Positions 26,764-43,961 of a stretch of DNA of 64,000 nt are shown in pieces. The notes beneath the pieces were generated by a model, which did no database searches, was not told where the DNA came from, and saw nothing but the letters and a program-made list of their open reading frames with translations. A program made the translations under genes and the position numbers. Source of the DNA: an uncultured Roseburia sp. (lineage in GTDB: Bacteria > Bacillota > Clostridia > Lachnospirales > Lachnospiraceae); assembly GCA_947642555.1 (NCBI GenBank), contig CANRSX010000016.1, positions 1 to 64,000 of the forward strand. The letters are read 5' to 3'. Each line of letters opens with the position of its first letter. Positions within the stretch are counted from its first letter, which is position 1.

Positions 26764-28233
26764 TCACCTTCCCGCTGTCTGGGGTGTGCGCAGATAGAGG
26801 GCGTGCATCGTCTCCAGCGTGTCTGACGTAAACAGCCGCTCCTTGATCTCCTGATAGCGCTCCCTGGTGATCTCCTCCACCACGCCGTCCACCGGCTCCT
26901 CGGTATCCGGGTCGCAGTGGCTGGCGTCGTTCCTGGCGATGCGCACCATGTGAAGCACATTCAGCGCCTCATCCATGCGCCGCGCAAAGCCGACATCCCG
27001 CCCAAAGCCCGCCGCCCGGAGAATCCGCGCCTTCGCACCGTTATTCCGGCAGAGGCCTAAGATGTCATTCTGATTTAATCTGCCTGATTTGTCCCGGTGG
27101 AGTCTGGCGTAGGCGTCATGATTAAAGGTTTCCGCCACCCTTGCGATCTCTCCCATCACAAAGCCCTCCACCGCTTTTCCGAGAAAGCTCATCGGCCCTG
27201 CGTAATCCCCGAGTCCGATGGCCTCACAGGCATTCTCATAAAAAGCCGCCTGGTAGAGCAGATGCCCCCGCCGCTCCCTGGCATTAAAAAACTCCAGCTT
27301 CTTCCGGTATCCCTCCGAGCCCTCCTCGAGCACCGACTTTAAAAAACCTCGGATGTATTCCTCCCGCGTCACCGGCGCCACCTCCGGCACCCGGGCCGAC
27401 AAACGATCTTCGTAGTCGATTCTTCCTTCATCCGCGCGGATTCTTAAATCATCGGGGCTGATCGCGGCGACAGCTCCGTTGATCCGCTGTATGTCCCCCT
27501 GGATCTGTGTCAGGCTCTCGTTTGCCAGCACCACACCCCGGTAGGTCTCGCTGGTCTTCTGCCGGATCTCCTCCATAAAATCCTGCAGGATATCCCATTG
27601 CACCGGATCCGACGCGGCAGCCGCGGGCTTCACCGGAAGATTGTCCTCCCCCGCTGCCAGGATCCGCACGTCGATGGTCTGGTCCGACGCGTTTCTCCCG
27701 CCAAACCGGAGCACATCGCCCCCGGACAGCTCGCGGATCTCGTCTTTTTTCAGCCGCTCCTGGTTCACATACACCGCGGATTTCTGTCCCGTGTCCCGGC
27801 AGTAGCCCACAAAGAGCCGGTCCTGATCGATGTGCAGCTCGACGTTGTAGCGGCTGATACAGGCGTAATGCCGGTCGATCTCCCCGCTGCCGCTACTGAA
27901 AAAGAATCTGCTGTCTGTGGTAAACGCGATCCGGCCAAGCACCAGCCCCTCCGGCCCGATGGGAATACGGGTCACCTTCGCCTGCACCGGCTTTCCCTTT
28001 TCATACCTCGTAGCCGTAATATAAAACAGCGGCTCCGGCTCTTCCCAGGGTTCCTCCTCGTCGTCGTTCCAGCTTATGGCCTCCGTCTCCACGCCAAAGG
28101 GTTTTTCCTCCTCCTTTAAAAAGCTCTCCGCCCGGGGCATCTGATTCTCCCAGGAATCCGGCTCTGATGCCGGCAGATGCCGAAACACCGGCTTACGCTG
28201 ATAATACCTCGTATTCTGATCTGAAGCGCCCAT
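26764..28233 (-). CDS. FHA-domain protein with a C-terminal HEPN-type domain
   Basis: A 489-residue protein. An acidic, disordered N-terminus (1-68) precedes an FHA domain (about 85-190) that would bind phosphothreonine; recognisable parts are EGLVLGR, a SRYNVELHI segment and GGDVLRFGG. A helical linker (210-300) leads to a helical C-terminal domain (about 310-480) containing RNDASH at 434-439, which fits the HEPN RNase motif R-x4-6-H with the typical Asn after Arg. HEPN proteins often cleave RNA in toxin and defence systems. The FHA call is firm; HEPN rests on one motif in a suitable helical context. AAAGGAG precedes the ATG. Confidence 0.78.
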   Translation of the reverse strand: MGASDQNTRYYQRKPVFRHLPASEPDSWENQMPRAESFLKEEEKPFGVETEAISWNDDEEEPWEEPEPLFYITATRYEKGKPVQAKVTRIPIGPEGLVLGRIAFTTDSRFFFSSGSGEIDRHYACISRYNVELHIDQDRLFVGYCRDTGQKSAVYVNQERLKKDEIRELSGGDVLRFGGRNASDQTIDVRILAAGEDNLPVKPAAAASDPVQWDILQDFMEEIRQKTSETYRGVVLANESLTQIQGDIQRINGAVAAISPDDLRIRADEGRIDYEDRLSARVPEVAPVTREEYIRGFLKSVLEEGSEGYRKKLEFFNARERRGHLLYQAAFYENACEAIGLGDYAGPMSFLGKAVEGFVMGEIARVAETFNHDAYARLHRDKSGRLNQNDILGLCRNNGAKARILRAAGFGRDVGFARRMDEALNVLHMVRIARNDASHCDPDTEEPVDGVVEEITRERYQEIKERLFTSDTLETMHALYLRTPQTAGR

Positions 28234-28260: not shown

Positions 28261-30039
28261 TTATTTTTTCATGCCGCGGATCCGCGCAAAGAAGCCGAAC
28301 CGCTCTTTCTTCCCGGGCTTCGCAGGCACCTCTTTTTTCTCCGCCGGTGCGTCCTCTTTTTCCAAAAAACCTTCGTAGTACTCAAATCCACCTTTTCCGT
28401 AAAAAGGGCGGAAGCGCTGTCTGGCATTCAGAATCGCCTGTCCCTGCCGGTTCTTAAAATTCTCCCCGGCAGCCCGTTTAAACATTCCGCGCACCTCCCA
28501 CTTCAGCTGCGGATCCATCCTGATCTGTTCCGTCAGTTCCTGAAAATAATACTCCAGCCAGCACATCGCCAGCTCGTCGTCTATCTCATACCGCATTCCG
28601 CAAAGCGGCGTTCCCTCCAGCGCCTCCTTCGTCGAGGGCAGGCCGGGACAGTCCGCCTCCGATCCCGACAGCATCTCTTCCCATGTCTTCCCTGACACGA
28701 AACACTCCGGATCTTTCGCATACTGGGCCAGCTGCTCAAAGGCCAGCAGGTGTGACAGTTCCCGTATCAGCTCTTCCCCGAAATGCTGCGGATGTATCAC
28801 GCCGGTCCTCTCCCAGTTTTTCTGTATATAAAACCCGCACAGCTCCCACATCAGCGTGATGACAGGCACACCCGTCCTGACCGTCCCGTCCTCCGCCTCC
28901 ATACGGGTGACAGCTCTCCCTTTTTGGGGATCCCATACAGAAGCGCCCGGCGGCAGCTTCTGATGTATTTCCTCAACCGACACCTGAAACTGACGGGACT
29001 TTGTATAGTTCCGGATCCCGGCGTCAAACATTTCCCTGTATTCCGCCGCCTGGGGCGAGTCCGACCATTCTGGCAGATATGGCTCCACATGAAAAACACT
29101 GCAGTGGCGAAGATATTCCGGGAGCCCTTCTTTTAATGCATCCCGCATCTTAAGATGATAGCCATTCTCCTTCATCGCGCGCTCAAAGCAGTCTTTCCAC
29201 AGCTTCAGAAATCCCGCCGGCAGCTGCGCCTTCCCGTCCCACCGGAAAAGAACGCCCAGATAAAAAAATTCCCCCCGGCAGTCATACCCGTCCGCCGCAA
29301 TGCATTTCGTCAGCTTCAGCGCCCGATCGGGAATATCCTCCGCCTGGAACGCATCCAGAAGCTTCTCCGCCGTCTTCCAAAGACTCTCCGCCTCCGCCCT
29401 GTCCGTAAAGTAAAGCTGCGCCGCGCTCTGCTGCAGCAGAGACGCCTCCACCGCGGTCAGACAGGCGGCTGTCTCCGAATCCATGTACCGGTCCAGATCG
29501 CTTCGCGACAGATATAATTCAAATATCCGGACCGCCTCGGCATTCTGTGTCGGCTCCCGGGGAACTATGGTCTGCAGCAGCCAGTATTTCGCCTGCACGG
29601 TCAGATCCTGTGTCTGGCAGGGATCTGCCGCTGCTCCATTTCCCGCCAGAACCCTGCGCTCCGCCTTCTCCAGCTGCAGGATATCCCCCAGCAGCCTTGC
29701 CGCCTCAAGACCCCCGCTTCTGTCCGGCGCAAGGAATTCGATCCGTGCCTCACAATCCGCGATTTCCTGGTTTTGCCTGCTCATTTCCTGTTTCACAGAA
29801 TCAGTCCGCACAAGGGTCTGGCCGCCGTAGGCAAACATCTCCGCCAAAAGCCTGATCCGTTCCTCTTTTTTCTCAAGCTCTCGTTTTGGCTTTTTCAGAT
29901 TCTTTAACTGTTTTTTCACTCTGCCGTATTCGGCTGCCCTCTCTTTTTGCCCCTGCGCCTGCTCCCGTTTCTGCTCCAGTTCAGAATTGAATGCATTCAG
30001 AACCTTTTGTAATTTCTTCCGATCCGGTTTCCTGTTCAT
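28261..30039 (-). CDS. Large protein of unknown family with N-terminal coiled coil, in the kinase operon
   Basis: A 592-residue protein I do not recognise. The first ~105 residues are highly charged and predicted coiled coil (LQKVLNAFNSELEQKREQ, ELEKKEERIRLL). The middle (about 110-300) is helical and could form repeat-like hairpins. The C-terminal third includes GYPVITLMWELC-like hydrophobic and IDDELAMCWLEYYFQ segments, and the last 25 residues are Lys/Pro-rich. There is no signal peptide or membrane helix. Its ATG overlaps the kinase stop codon by 4 nt, implying tight coupling with the kinase, and the FHA gene starts 27 nt later. It could be a kinase substrate or scaffold. Confidence 0.8.
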   Translation of the reverse strand: MNRKPDRKKLQKVLNAFNSELEQKREQAQGQKERAAEYGRVKKQLKNLKKPKRELEKKEERIRLLAEMFAYGGQTLVRTDSVKQEMSRQNQEIADCEARIEFLAPDRSGGLEAARLLGDILQLEKAERRVLAGNGAAADPCQTQDLTVQAKYWLLQTIVPREPTQNAEAVRIFELYLSRSDLDRYMDSETAACLTAVEASLLQQSAAQLYFTDRAEAESLWKTAEKLLDAFQAEDIPDRALKLTKCIAADGYDCRGEFFYLGVLFRWDGKAQLPAGFLKLWKDCFERAMKENGYHLKMRDALKEGLPEYLRHCSVFHVEPYLPEWSDSPQAAEYREMFDAGIRNYTKSRQFQVSVEEIHQKLPPGASVWDPQKGRAVTRMEAEDGTVRTGVPVITLMWELCGFYIQKNWERTGVIHPQHFGEELIRELSHLLAFEQLAQYAKDPECFVSGKTWEEMLSGSEADCPGLPSTKEALEGTPLCGMRYEIDDELAMCWLEYYFQELTEQIRMDPQLKWEVRGMFKRAAGENFKNRQGQAILNARQRFRPFYGKGGFEYYEGFLEKEDAPAEKKEVPAKPGKKERFGFFARIRGMKK

Positions 30040-32090
30040 CCCGATGTCATCCCTCTCTCTTTTGCCAGCTTCTCACACATAGCCGCCTCTGGACGCTTCA
30101 CGGTATCCTTCGCCTCCATGAGAAACGCGTAATAATCGACCCTCAGCTTTCCGTCCCCCGTGTAACACGCCTGCTGGATCCGCAGCGCCTTATTCAGATC
30201 CGTCTCATACAGCTCTTTTAACCAGGCAAGGAAATTCCGGTTTTCCTCAAAATCCCTGCCAGCCCGGTTCAGCCAGGCGCTGCCCTGCATACAGAAGGAA
30301 AGCCGGTACAGCTTCGCAATTACGCATGTCTTGTTTCCTTTGGCAAGCTCTTCCGTTATCTGTTTCGCCAGCGCCATATCATGCGCTCCTATCCCCCATG
30401 CATCCGGATAATTCTGGAAAAACCGCTCCACCGTACCTGAGGCAAACATCTCCACAAGCTCCTGATACAGATCCTTCGGCCCGTCTTTCACCGGTTTCGG
30501 AAGACGGTATCCGCCGCCACTTCTCTTCTTTTCTTCCAGCAATACTGCATAGATCGTCCGCCCGAACTCCTCTCTCGTGGCAAAAACATGATTGCGGTAA
30601 CGCAGCCTGCGCTCATAGAACTCCGCCGGCAGATAAGTCTCCATGATCATCTGATCAAAGATCTCTTCCTTCCTGGCCTCATCCGCCTGCATCTCCTCCC
30701 GGACCTGGTCAAAAAGATTCGCCACATCCTCGCCGAATCTGCTAAAGATCCGGCTCCATCTCGCGTTGCGCAGCAGGTTTTCGATCGTCTCGTCCCAGTG
30801 CTCCAGAAACAGAACCGCCATCTCCTCCGTGGAGTGGATCTTTACCGGCCGCTCCTGCCCGTATTTTACGACGACCTCCGTCTGTGGGCCGGCCACAGTC
30901 TTTTGTACTCTCGCAGTTCCCCGCTGCATTTCCGTCTGCCCGGATTGTCCGCCCGCAGCCTCCTGACCAGATGTCTGCACGCCAAAACCGGCGCCTCTCT
31001 GCTGCTCCGCCGCGATCTCGAGGCCGGTTCGGATGCCGCGGGCCGCGTCATGGTTCCCTTCTTTTACATATGTAATCCATGTTCTGATCTGCTTTGCGCC
31101 CCAGCGGTTATGGTTTCTCTCCCGCCGGTCCGTATCGCTGTAGATCGTGCCCTCAAAAAAACGCGCCAGGTAGTCCGGCAGCTGCTGCGGCAGCAAAAGG
31201 CCGTACCAGGTGTAGGCGGATTCCATATTCCGCCCCCGGTAGGCCTGATCCTCCGCCGTGTCGTTCATCTCGTCCATCCGCGGATAACGCCCCGCCACAA
31301 ATTCCGCCATGGTAAAGCCGAAGGAATAATAGTCTGTGGCGGCGCTGACCTTCGCCTTCCGCGCGTTCGTGAGCTCCGGCGCCGTGTAGCCGCGGGTCAC
31401 CATCGTGGCCGTCACGCTGCTCTCACCCTCCGGATGCCGTTCCCCGCCGACTCCGGCTCCGAAGTCGATAAGCACCAGGTGGTTTTTCCCGTCCGTTCCC
31501 TCGTACTGCATGATGTTGTCCGGCTTGATATCGGAATGAAAGATATGCTGCCCGTGCAGCGCAAAAAGCGCGTCATTCAGCCCCTCCGCCTCCTCGAGGA
31601 ACAGCCGTTCAAACAGTTTTTTATTTTTGCCAAAGGACTCGAATTCCAGGAAACCGTCATAGGGCTCATAAGCGCGCATCACAACCATATAGTACTTGTG
31701 ATCCTCCGTGATGCCGTCCGCGAAGATTTTTGCCAGGTGCGGGTGATTCAGCCCCATTACGGTCCGGTTCACCTCATGGATCTTCTCGATCCTCGCCCGT
31801 GTATTTTTCGCCAGCGGATAAAGCTTTGCCACCGCGGACACGCCGTCCGGCAGCTTCCCCTCCCGCAGAAAACAGTCGTATACCTTCGCCTGGCCGCCCT
31901 TATTCCGCGGAAGGCTCCCTTTTGGAACGTACCAGGGCCCCATCACAGCCCGGCCAGACAGCGGCTGGCCCGATGCGCCGGCGGCCGGCTGTACCCGGGC
32001 GTCTGTCTTCCGCTCCTCTTCCTGCTCCAGATATGTCGTGGGAACCGCCTCATACGCCGGCCCGCCCGGTTTCTTTTCCGATGTATTCAT
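30036..32090 (-). CDS. Hanks-type Ser/Thr protein kinase with a long C-terminal domain of unknown function
   Basis: A 684-residue soluble kinase. The catalytic domain spans about 52-345: glycine-rich KGGQAKVY (64-71), Lys89 in AVAKLY, catalytic HSDIKPDN (185-192), LIDFGAG (208-213) and TAPEL (236-240). All key residues are present, so it should be active. Unlike PrkC-type kinases it lacks a membrane helix and PASTA repeats. The last ~270 residues (from about 415) are helical and unrecognised, perhaps a sensor. AAGGAG precedes the ATG. It is the first gene of the unit with the coiled-coil, FHA-HEPN and PP2C genes. Confidence 0.93.
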   Translation of the reverse strand: MNTSEKKPGGPAYEAVPTTYLEQEEERKTDARVQPAAGASGQPLSGRAVMGPWYVPKGSLPRNKGGQAKVYDCFLREGKLPDGVSAVAKLYPLAKNTRARIEKIHEVNRTVMGLNHPHLAKIFADGITEDHKYYMVVMRAYEPYDGFLEFESFGKNKKLFERLFLEEAEGLNDALFALHGQHIFHSDIKPDNIMQYEGTDGKNHLVLIDFGAGVGGERHPEGESSVTATMVTRGYTAPELTNARKAKVSAATDYYSFGFTMAEFVAGRYPRMDEMNDTAEDQAYRGRNMESAYTWYGLLLPQQLPDYLARFFEGTIYSDTDRRERNHNRWGAKQIRTWITYVKEGNHDAARGIRTGLEIAAEQQRGAGFGVQTSGQEAAGGQSGQTEMQRGTARVQKTVAGPQTEVVVKYGQERPVKIHSTEEMAVLFLEHWDETIENLLRNARWSRIFSRFGEDVANLFDQVREEMQADEARKEEIFDQMIMETYLPAEFYERRLRYRNHVFATREEFGRTIYAVLLEEKKRSGGGYRLPKPVKDGPKDLYQELVEMFASGTVERFFQNYPDAWGIGAHDMALAKQITEELAKGNKTCVIAKLYRLSFCMQGSAWLNRAGRDFEENRNFLAWLKELYETDLNKALRIQQACYTGDGKLRVDYYAFLMEAKDTVKRPEAAMCEKLAKERGMTSG

Positions 32091-36542: not shown

Positions 36543-37949
36543 ATGTACGAAAGAACGTATCACATCATCCGTAAGACACACAGGCAGAAGATCCGGCAGA
36601 CCATACGGCGCATCGCCGCCATGACAGCCGTCACCGCGCTGATCATCACAGCCACGATACTCGCAGGCAGGCTGCTGCCGGTAAAAGCCTCTGCCCCTGG
36701 CGGCGCACGCACGGCTTTCACGACCGTTCAGGCGGCAGGCAGCGCCATGCATCCGGCCGTATCCGGGTTCATCCTTTCCTACAGCGAAGCAGCTCCCACA
36801 GCGGATCCGGGCGTCCCGGTCATCATCCTCGACCCCGGTCACGGCGGGGAGGATGAGGGCTGCATCTGCGGCGGCATTCTGGAAAAGGACTTAAACCTCT
36901 CCATTGCAAACCTGGTGAAAACCCGGCTGGAGGCCCTCGGCTTTTCCGTGATCCTGACCCGGGACGCGGATATATATCTCCCCAAGGAAGACCGGGTGAT
37001 CCTGGCGAATCAGAGCGGCGCCTCCCTCTACGTCAGCATCCACCAGAATTCCGCGGAGGATCCCGGGATAAGCGGCCTTGAGGTGTGGTATGACGAGGAC
37101 GGCGTCCGCGACAGCGGACGGCTGGCCCGGCTGATCGAACAGCAGGCTCTCGCACAGACCGGCGCGGCAAAACGGGAGCTCCACGGCGATGCCGGGTTTC
37201 ATGTGACCGGCCAGACTGTAATGCCCGCCTGCCTGGTGGAATGCGGATTCCTTACAAACGACGCGGAGCGGGGGATGATGGTCACGGCAGAATATCAGGG
37301 GCGGATCGCGGACGGGATCGCACAGGGTATTGACCTGTATTTTCACCCGAAAACCATGTATTTAACCTTTGACGACGGTCCTTCCCCGGAGAACACGGTC
37401 CGTGTGCTGGACATCTTAAAAGAACGGGATATCCGGGCAACCTTTTTCCTTGTCGGGGAAAACGTGCGCAGATATCCCGAAATTGTTCAGCGGATCGTCG
37501 CGGAGGGGCACACCATCGGCATTCACTGTGACAGCCATGACTACAACCGGATTTACGCGAGCGCAGACAGCTATCTCGCCGACTTTGAAGCCGCCCATCA
37601 GACTCTCCTGGAGCTGACCGGCATCGACGTGAAGCTGTTCCGGTTTCCCGGCGGGAGCGTCAATGATTTTAACGCTGGCGTCCGGGATGAAATCATCCGT
37701 GAAATGACGGCACGCGGCTGTATTTATTTTGACTGGAACGCCAGCTTAGAAGACGCGACGGCAGAGGCCGACCCCGCGCAGCTTGTCGCAAACGGCGTGT
37801 CGACGACGCTGGGGCGGCAGAAGGTCGTCATGCTCGCCCACGATGTCAAAACGCATACCGCGCTCTGCTTAGAGACGCTTCTGGATTCACTCCCGGAATA
37901 CCGGATGCTGCCGCTGGATGAAACGGTGGAACCGATTCAGTTTCGCTGA
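36543..37949 (+). CDS. Fused N-acetylmuramoyl-L-alanine amidase and polysaccharide deacetylase
   Basis: A 468-residue extracytoplasmic enzyme. An N-terminal signal anchor (about 24-47) is followed by an Amidase_3 zinc hydrolase domain (about 97-262: DPGHGGEDEG, EKDLNLSIA, SIHQNS, LVECGFLTN). A NodB/CE4 deacetylase domain comes next (about 270-455: TFDDGPSPENT, HCDSHDY, RFPGGS). Both active sites look complete. It could cut the peptide from peptidoglycan and deacetylate the glycan. The start is ATG 36543, after AGGAAGGGG. It probably belongs to the regulon of the adjacent two-component system. Confidence 0.94.
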   Translation: MYERTYHIIRKTHRQKIRQTIRRIAAMTAVTALIITATILAGRLLPVKASAPGGARTAFTTVQAAGSAMHPAVSGFILSYSEAAPTADPGVPVIILDPGHGGEDEGCICGGILEKDLNLSIANLVKTRLEALGFSVILTRDADIYLPKEDRVILANQSGASLYVSIHQNSAEDPGISGLEVWYDEDGVRDSGRLARLIEQQALAQTGAAKRELHGDAGFHVTGQTVMPACLVECGFLTNDAERGMMVTAEYQGRIADGIAQGIDLYFHPKTMYLTFDDGPSPENTVRVLDILKERDIRATFFLVGENVRRYPEIVQRIVAEGHTIGIHCDSHDYNRIYASADSYLADFEAAHQTLLELTGIDVKLFRFPGGSVNDFNAGVRDEIIREMTARGCIYFDWNASLEDATAEADPAQLVANGVSTTLGRQKVVMLAHDVKTHTALCLETLLDSLPEYRMLPLDETVEPIQFR

Positions 37950-42374: not shown

Positions 42375-43853
42375 CTATATCACAAGATAGGCTATTGTCA
42401 GCGGAAGAAGTTCCAGCCTGCCTGCTGCGGTCTTCGGAACAATCTCTGGCATCGTCCCCTCTCTGCTCAGTTCTGCGGTCTTTCCGTTTATCTGCATCCT
42501 CTGCGAGCGGATATGTTCGGCGCTCAGCACATATACCTCGGCCTTCCCCTCAAATTTCAGCACTGTAGTTTCTTTTGGAGAATTGTTGATCACTGCATAT
42601 GCAAAGCCGTCTCTGCCGTCTCTCCTGGAATGCACGTAGATATGTGCGCCTTCCCTCTGCGAAATCCCCGGATCATATACCGTTGTTCCCATTACCCGGT
42701 TCCAGAGACAGACCGCCCAGTAATTCGGACGCGGAAGATGCGTAACCGGATCCAGATATCCGTAGTCAGAGGATGCAAGTGTATTGTGAAAAATGATGCC
42801 GTCTGTAACCGCTGCAAAGCTTCCAAGCTCATTCACGGTCCGGAATACATCCAGAAACGTCGGTCCCCAGGTATTTCCTCCTCCGCCGGCATCTCCCGCC
42901 TCCGTCACCCACAGGGGTGCGCCGGGACAAAACCGGTCACGAAGCGATCCGTAATATCCGGCAGCTTTTTTTACCACTGCAAGATACTCCTCCCCGATCG
43001 CCTCCTCCTGTGCCCAGTGCCCTTTTCCAGTCTCTGCGAGACGCTCGGACAGGCCGTTATAACAATGATAACTGAATACATCCGGCATTTCCCTGCACAT
43101 CTCCATCAGCCGCTCCGTCGGGATCGGCTTCAGGCGCCTTACCGCTGACCGCTCTGACTGCCTGCTTGCACCGGTCCTGTCCCCGCAGCCGCATGGCCCT
43201 GCAAGGATAACCTCCGGATAATTTTTCCTGACAAAACGGTAGAAGGCATCCTGATCCTTTGCGAGATCCTGCTCTTTGTACGCGACAGAGATATTGTCCC
43301 CGACAAAATTTGGTTCGTTCATAAACTCTGCCGCCGCAATCGGAACGCCGTAATCTCTGCTGTAGTCGAACAACAGCTTCGCCTGCTCCGGCGTCCAGGG
43401 CTTTCCCCCCTTATGATCTCCCTTGCAGTTGCTGACGGAAATCATAAGTTTTCCCTTCGTCTCCCGCACGAAATCAAGCACCCCGTCCCACTGTTCTTTC
43501 GTCAGCAGCGCCTGATAGCCCTCAGGAACCTCTCCTCCCGTATGACCGTCAAAGTCATAATATGTCCCCGTCGCCCAGCCCCCGCTGACACGGATATAGC
43601 AGGACCCCAGCGCCGATGCCAGCATACGGATTCTCTCCCCGCCGAGGTTTACAGGATCATACTGCTGCATCATTTCGCCGTATCGCGTAAGCTCTACCGG
43701 CACGACCTGTATTTCCCCGCTTATCTGTTCCGGCGTATACGCCTTCCAAAAGGTTCCCCCGGTGACATTCGCCATCTCAATGTTATAAGAAACCAGGCGT
43801 TCATCAGCCTTTCTCAATTTCCTGAACCCTGTCGGTTCCAGCCTTACTTCCAC
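42375..43853 (-). CDS. GH79-like (beta-glucuronidase/heparanase-type) glycosidase
   Basis: A retaining glycosidase of clan GH-A, most like GH79. The acid/base Glu is in AEFMNEPNFVG and the nucleophile Glu in LWVTEAGDAGGG. The heparanase-like pattern YLDPVTHLPRPNYWAVCLWNRVMGTTVYDP follows, and a small C-terminal beta domain ends it. The track starts at a TTG (43940) with no ribosome binding site; GTG 43853, behind GGTGGAGG, fits the promoter at 43893-43901 better. No signal peptide. It is divergent from an AraC regulator and upstream of the GPH transporter. Glucuronide specificity is inferred. Confidence 0.78.
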   Translation of the reverse strand: MEVRLEPTGFRKLRKADERLVSYNIEMANVTGGTFWKAYTPEQISGEIQVVPVELTRYGEMMQQYDPVNLGGERIRMLASALGSCYIRVSGGWATGTYYDFDGHTGGEVPEGYQALLTKEQWDGVLDFVRETKGKLMISVSNCKGDHKGGKPWTPEQAKLLFDYSRDYGVPIAAAEFMNEPNFVGDNISVAYKEQDLAKDQDAFYRFVRKNYPEVILAGPCGCGDRTGASRQSERSAVRRLKPIPTERLMEMCREMPDVFSYHCYNGLSERLAETGKGHWAQEEAIGEEYLAVVKKAAGYYGSLRDRFCPGAPLWVTEAGDAGGGGNTWGPTFLDVFRTVNELGSFAAVTDGIIFHNTLASSDYGYLDPVTHLPRPNYWAVCLWNRVMGTTVYDPGISQREGAHIYVHSRRDGRDGFAYAVINNSPKETTVLKFEGKAEVYVLSAEHIRSQRMQINGKTAELSREGTMPEIVPKTAAGRLELLPLTIAYLVI

Positions 43854-43892
43854 CACAGAGTCCTCCACCCCCCTTCCATATTCTCTGACCTG

Positions 43893-43901
43893 AGTATAAC
43901 A
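43893..43901 (-). promoter_or_regulatory. Extended -10 promoter of the GH79-GPH unit
   Basis: Reading leftward, TGTTATACT (43901-43893) is an extended -10 element. The start near 43886 lies downstream of the TTG used in the ORF track, which supports the GTG 43853 start. No matching -35 hexamer is seen, fitting activation by the divergent AraC-type regulator. Confidence 0.5.
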
Positions 43902-43961
43902 GGTTCCGGCATATTGATTTATCAATTTTTTTATGTTCAATCAGATATTATTTATATCAAG

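Follow-up and report, generated by a model that had tools for sequence, protein, structure and literature searches.

A kinase/phosphatase gene cassette from an uncultured Roseburia sp. encodes an FHA protein with a candidate HEPN RNase domain

Introduction

Known means by which bacteria control HEPN RNases are antitoxins, guide RNA, cyclic nucleotides and ligand-binding domains. A kinase is found together with a COG1112-type RNA helicase and a PLD nuclease in the Mokosh system.

In HEPN families such as DUF4145, Abi_C and Csx1 (Anantharaman et al. 2013, PMC3710099) an R-N-x3-H motif ends a hydrophobic helix, an A-x-E helix lies upstream, and N, D or H is typical after the arginine where the motif is conserved; the text of that 2013 survey makes no mention of the FHA domain. 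Regulation of a HEPN nuclease by a sensor domain in one chain has been proposed for the experimentally validated CBS-HEPN protein DS-11 (PMC13092281), and fusions of FHA to PIN have been published in vWA-MoxR conflict systems (PMC7159879). In the kinase-kinase-phosphatase (KKP) phage defence system, a phosphorylation-based toxin/antitoxin, there are two kinases, PfkA, which carries a cold-shock domain, and PfkB, which is fused to an FHA domain (PMC11341870).

Here we describe a four-gene cassette from an uncultured Roseburia sp. in which a Ser/Thr kinase and a PP2C phosphatase accompany an FHA protein with a HEPN-like C-terminal region. Our search of open-licence papers found no description of an FHA-HEPN fusion, in line with an earlier sequence-only reading of this DNA, to which the architecture was not known by name. 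The protein resembles DS-11 in joining a sensor to a HEPN or HEPN-like domain in a single chain, but the sensor is a phosphothreonine-binding type of domain, FHA, rather than the ligand-binding CBS; it resembles the FHA-PIN proteins in joining FHA to a predicted RNase effector, but the effector is not PIN and the system is a different one.

Materials and Methods

The analysed DNA, referred to below as the window, is a stretch of 64,000 nt (GCA_947642555.1, contig CANRSX010000016.1, positions 1 to 64,000, forward strand). For comparison with HEPN domains we searched 60 genomes of this bacterial family with the Pfam models DUF4145 and Abi_C and built a profile from 16 of the sequences gathered. 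The decoys set against the C-terminal 205 residues of the FHA protein were tiles of real proteins, taken from E. coli K-12 stretches and from the loci compared here.

Results and Discussion

The gene and its FHA domain

The reading frame encoding the FHA protein (Table 1) is a real gene, since an AAAGGAG ribosome-binding site lies a few bases upstream of its ATG and its codon usage is host-like: the codon log-ratio of 0.236 lies towards the top of the values of the neighbouring genes (0.12-0.28), unlike the values for shifted and antisense frames of the same ORF (-0.36 to +0.11).

The Pfam model PF00498 scores 20.7 bits on the whole 489-aa protein, exactly at its curated cut-off (20.7), and 22.2 bits on residues 1-204 alone. 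Independently, a small local pairwise comparison matches 54 aa of the protein, at 35% and E 2e-7, to the FHA protein encoded by a related operon. Both matches bear out the sequence-only reading, which had placed an FHA domain at about residues 85-190, and the fold probably spans residues ~70-195. The FHA residues GR (R101) and SR (127-128) are retained, while the Asn of the NGT motif is replaced (QKSAVYVN). Phosphothreonine binding is probable from these residues, if not certain, and it may be weak because the conserved Asn is missing.

Among ~360 genomes (299 of the family and 62 of the genus) the FHA protein has no homologue beyond FHA-domain matches, the same-genus genomes contributing two of these (E 0.04), and genome contigs, viral contigs and plasmids gave FHA-domain matches or none. 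Its C-terminal half has no homologue among viral contigs, phages and plasmids. A match to an Enterococcus avium plasmid (E 9) sits in a sugar-transport operon and was rejected as noise, as was a weak NCBIfam match to glycerol-3-phosphate dehydrogenase (E 0.03-0.18, 11-13 of 473 bits). The combination of FHA with a HEPN-like region is represented so far by a single genome.

Table 1. Coordinates of the cassette genes, the parts of the FHA protein and the related operons
Feature	Position	Strand	Basis
FHA protein with HEPN-like C-terminal region, 489 aa	26764..28233	(-)	ATG start; RBS and codon usage; Pfam FHA
FHA core, residues 123-178	27700..27867	(-)	PF00498, 20.7-22.2 bits
Linker, residues 205-311	27301..27621	(-)	helices predicted at low confidence; no family match, no homologues
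Candidate HEPN domain, residues 312-470 (KAVE356 helix, long insertion, RNDASH helix, final helix)	26824..27300	(-)	HMM and hhalign
RNDASH, residues 434-439, candidate HEPN catalytic Rx4H motif	26917..26934	(-)	sequence
Ser/Thr kinase, 684 aa, conserved C-terminal helical region	30036..32090	(-)	Pkinase E 3e-20; full-length homologues G128, G023, G247
Orphan protein, 592 aa, charged coiled-coil at N-terminus	28261..30039	(-)	ORF; no family match
PP2C phosphatase, 255 aa	25944..26711	(-)	PF00481 E 2e-7
Recurring kinase/MSGPK/FHA/radical-SAM-like/AAA/PP2C operon	L038 688-7592; L039 5116-12800; L051 2196-9565	L039: (-)	

The C-terminal half as a candidate HEPN domain

The RNDASH motif, which the translation places just where the sequence-only reading had it, fits the HEPN rule Rx4-6H with a polar residue after the arginine, and its R, N and H are all intact; the statement of that reading that Asn after Arg is typical of catalytic HEPN motifs agrees with the published rule (PMC3710099). 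Taken bare, however, the motif is weak evidence, since shuffling the C-terminal 205 residues yields the loose pattern R[NDH]x3-5H by chance in 22% of cases and the stricter RNxx[AGSVC]H in 0.9%, and its weight comes only from its helix context. A composite two-motif pattern, found in 0.1% of shuffles, was set aside as evidence because it had been designed after the protein was seen.

The C-terminal half is matched by no family in Pfam, NCBIfam or PADLOC, HEPN models included, and by none of the PDB sequences. Against our HEPN profile, HMMER gives the C-terminal 205 residues 4.3 bits, a score reached by 11 of the 1040 tiles (top ~1%), one of which is a true Csx1 HEPN. True HEPN members score from -0.8 to 33 bits when their own subfamily is omitted from the profile; 4.3 bits is thus inside the range of true distant members, at its low end, and the score drops to 0.6 when one HEPN subfamily is left out. 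With hhalign the C-terminal 205 residues score 20.3 against the same profile and the true Csx1 HEPN 18.9, and 20.3 was reached by one of 700 real-protein tiles, which has no motif at the aligned place, and by none of 200 shuffles. The matched segment is the helix LNVLHMVRIARNDASH, residues 424-439, which ends in RNDASH, the significant part of the match being just these 16 residues. The upstream segment ENACEAIGLGDYAGPMSFLGKAVEGFV looks like the first two helices of HEPN, as judged by eye and from a colinear but negative-scoring HMM segment.

The region shares with the DUF4145, Abi_C and Csx1 families described above a hydrophobic helix ending in R-N-x3-H and an A-x-E helix upstream. It differs from DUF4145 members in having ~80 rather than ~50 residues between the two motifs, and from HEPN families at large in showing no significant full-domain similarity to them and in being fused to FHA. 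Helices appear at low confidence in two single-sequence AlphaFold models (pLDDT 38-39), the only ones of our results that bear on the all-helical domain of the earlier reading; Foldseek on the second, uninformative model returned no HEPN match. As for the fusion that this reading had proposed, the FHA part is confirmed, and for the other part the profile comparisons make a HEPN domain probable, if unproven.

The four-gene cassette

The gene for the FHA protein is the third of four co-directional genes, in the order kinase, 592-aa orphan, FHA protein and PP2C, with gaps of -4, 27 and 52 nt; the start of the orphan overlaps the kinase stop by 4 nt, and ribosome-binding sites precede the kinase, FHA and PP2C genes. 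The kinase retains its catalytic residues (AVAK, HSDIKPDN, DFG), and the PP2C its metal-site motifs (DGVGG, SDG, TDD). A four-gene kinase/phosphatase cassette with an FHA and HEPN-like protein is rare. For the 592-aa orphan, searches of 392 genomes of the order, of plasmids and of the MSGPK proteins described below gave no homologue; kinship with MSGPK or with a 783-aa protein of G128 was considered and rejected on comparison.

An esterase and a NIF3-family gene come after the cassette on the same strand, and the neighbours are metabolic (esterases, NIF3, amidase, transporter), with no defence island. In another genome of the genus (G302) the esterase and NIF3 genes lie close together and the cassette is absent, and none of the 61 further genomes of the genus matches the kinase tail at E 0.01. 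Given this absence from same-genus relatives, the cassette is, judged by its distribution, an accessory system, and since its codon usage is host-like its arrival was probably not very recent.

Like KKP (PMC11341870), the cassette carries a Ser/Thr kinase, a PP2C and an FHA domain in one operon, but it has one kinase instead of two, and its FHA domain belongs to a protein of its own, which ends in a HEPN-like tail. Identity with KKP was accordingly rejected, there being no kinase-FHA fusion and no match to the cold-shock domain. Identity with Mokosh was rejected as well, since the kinase domain alone matches MkoA and there is no helicase or PLD in the gene run.

Related kinase/FHA/PP2C operons

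Matches that span most or all of the kinase identify homologous kinases in G128 (25% identity, E 1e-54), G247 (E 1e-22) and G023 (E 4e-22), all of them other genomes. Common to G023, G247 and G925 is an operon, for which we found no published name, of a kinase, a coiled-coil protein whose sequence starts MSGPK, an FHA protein, a small protein that by eye resembles radical-SAM activating enzymes, a ClpB-like AAA ATPase and a PP2C. As these three operons carry the kinase homologue together with both FHA and PP2C, the latter two travel with the kinase lineage, in places beside defence genes, and the PP2C of the cassette is itself homologous to its counterparts there (E 7e-23). The present cassette, in contrast, has none of the MSGPK, radical-SAM-like, AAA and helicase genes of the related loci. 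The FHA proteins differ too, those of the related operons having paired cysteines at the N-terminus and no C-terminal extension, whereas the present one has a long C-terminal extension and lacks the cysteine pairs. From these comparisons the cassette is most likely related, in compact and diverged form, to a wider family of kinase/FHA/PP2C operons, and its FHA partner most likely gained the HEPN-like effector in this diverged form. It thereby draws attention to a little-described family whose operons sometimes occur with defence genes.

The G023 operon adjoins a PglZ gene. In G925 the contig starts inside csx1 and carries a CARF-HEPN Csx1 fragment and Csx20 (L051 1-1127) beside the kinase/FHA/AAA/PP2C operon; no other CRISPR genes were recognised on this 12.5-kb contig, and the proximity of Csx1 may be due to chance.

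The homologous kinases of G789 and G859 have a very large DUF4011/DUF3320 helicase upstream of them. This 1837-aa protein, which has an MTES_1575 REase domain, is encoded directly upstream of the kinase gene (L049 387-5900 and L050 1273-6786), and the L049 copy, from G789, is an Hhe-like helicase that matches PADLOC PDC-S37 with 1393 bits. Helicase and kinase at these two loci are possibly a multi-gene form of a candidate defence gene.

A phosphorylation-gated RNase and its alternatives

We propose that the cassette of kinase, 592-aa orphan, FHA protein and PP2C is a phosphorylation-gated RNase, to which as a whole we assign a probability of about 0.45. A signal would be sensed, perhaps via the C-terminal region of the kinase or by the 592-aa protein, upon which the kinase would phosphorylate itself or its partner on threonine. 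The FHA domain would dock on the phosphothreonine, bringing together or unlocking the C-terminal HEPN-like domains, a dimer of which would form the Rx4H RNase site; growth arrest or abortive infection would be the outcome, and removal of the phosphate mark by the PP2C would reset the system. The central element of this scheme, a HEPN RNase gated by phosphothreonine, with kinase and PP2C switching RNA cleavage by way of the FHA domain attached to it, is put forward tentatively. Such an RNase would plausibly have a role in phage defence.

On the other hand, the C-terminal half might be a lineage-specific helical domain for adaptor or oligomerisation functions, RNDASH being coincidental and the FHA protein linking the kinase to the 592-aa protein. 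The ease with which the loose motif arises by chance and the lack of any HEPN library match speak for such an adaptor, as do the FHA proteins of the related operons, which have no extension and may be small adaptors there; but the strict motif is far rarer in shuffles, and the whole RNDASH helix matches the HEPN profile as almost no tile and no shuffle does, and we regard an adaptor as rather unlikely. Were the HEPN fold present, it could still be catalytically silent and bind RNA or protein, given that several HEPN families lose motif or activity (PMC3710099), but with the R, N and H of the motif all intact this seems quite improbable.

A further alternative concerns the cassette rather than the domain, and would make it an ordinary Ser/Thr signalling unit of the Stp1/PrkC type, serving cell physiology and acting neither in defence nor as a toxin. 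The metabolic neighbours and host-like codon usage are consistent with this, and the PP2C is closest to the Stp1/IreP model (E 2e-27). Yet it reaches 96 of the 230 bits required by the NCBIfam cut-off and the kinase 46 of the 450 bits of the PASTA-kinase model, values on which identity with the housekeeping pair was rejected. Moreover, unlike a housekeeping system, the kinase tail is unmatched in the other genus genomes compared, the 592-aa protein occurs in this genome only among the 392 of the order, and some kinase homologues adjoin defence genes, all of which makes a physiological signalling unit unlikely.

If the phosphorylation-gated RNase is borne out, a bacterial HEPN toxin or defence effector would be switched directly by protein phosphorylation, and such control of a HEPN RNase at threonine would link two large realms of signalling.

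Other genes at the compared loci and in the window

In G128 the gene after the kinase (L037 2480-4831) encodes a protein with a coiled-coil, BspA-type leucine-rich repeats and, judged by eye, a likely transmembrane stretch, which is another way in which the operon has diversified. In the window, a 521-aa ORF with no Pfam match at E 0.001 (42375-43940) lies beside an MFS sugar transporter gene, and one fused protein (36543-37949) combines Amidase_3 and polysaccharide deacetylase domains.
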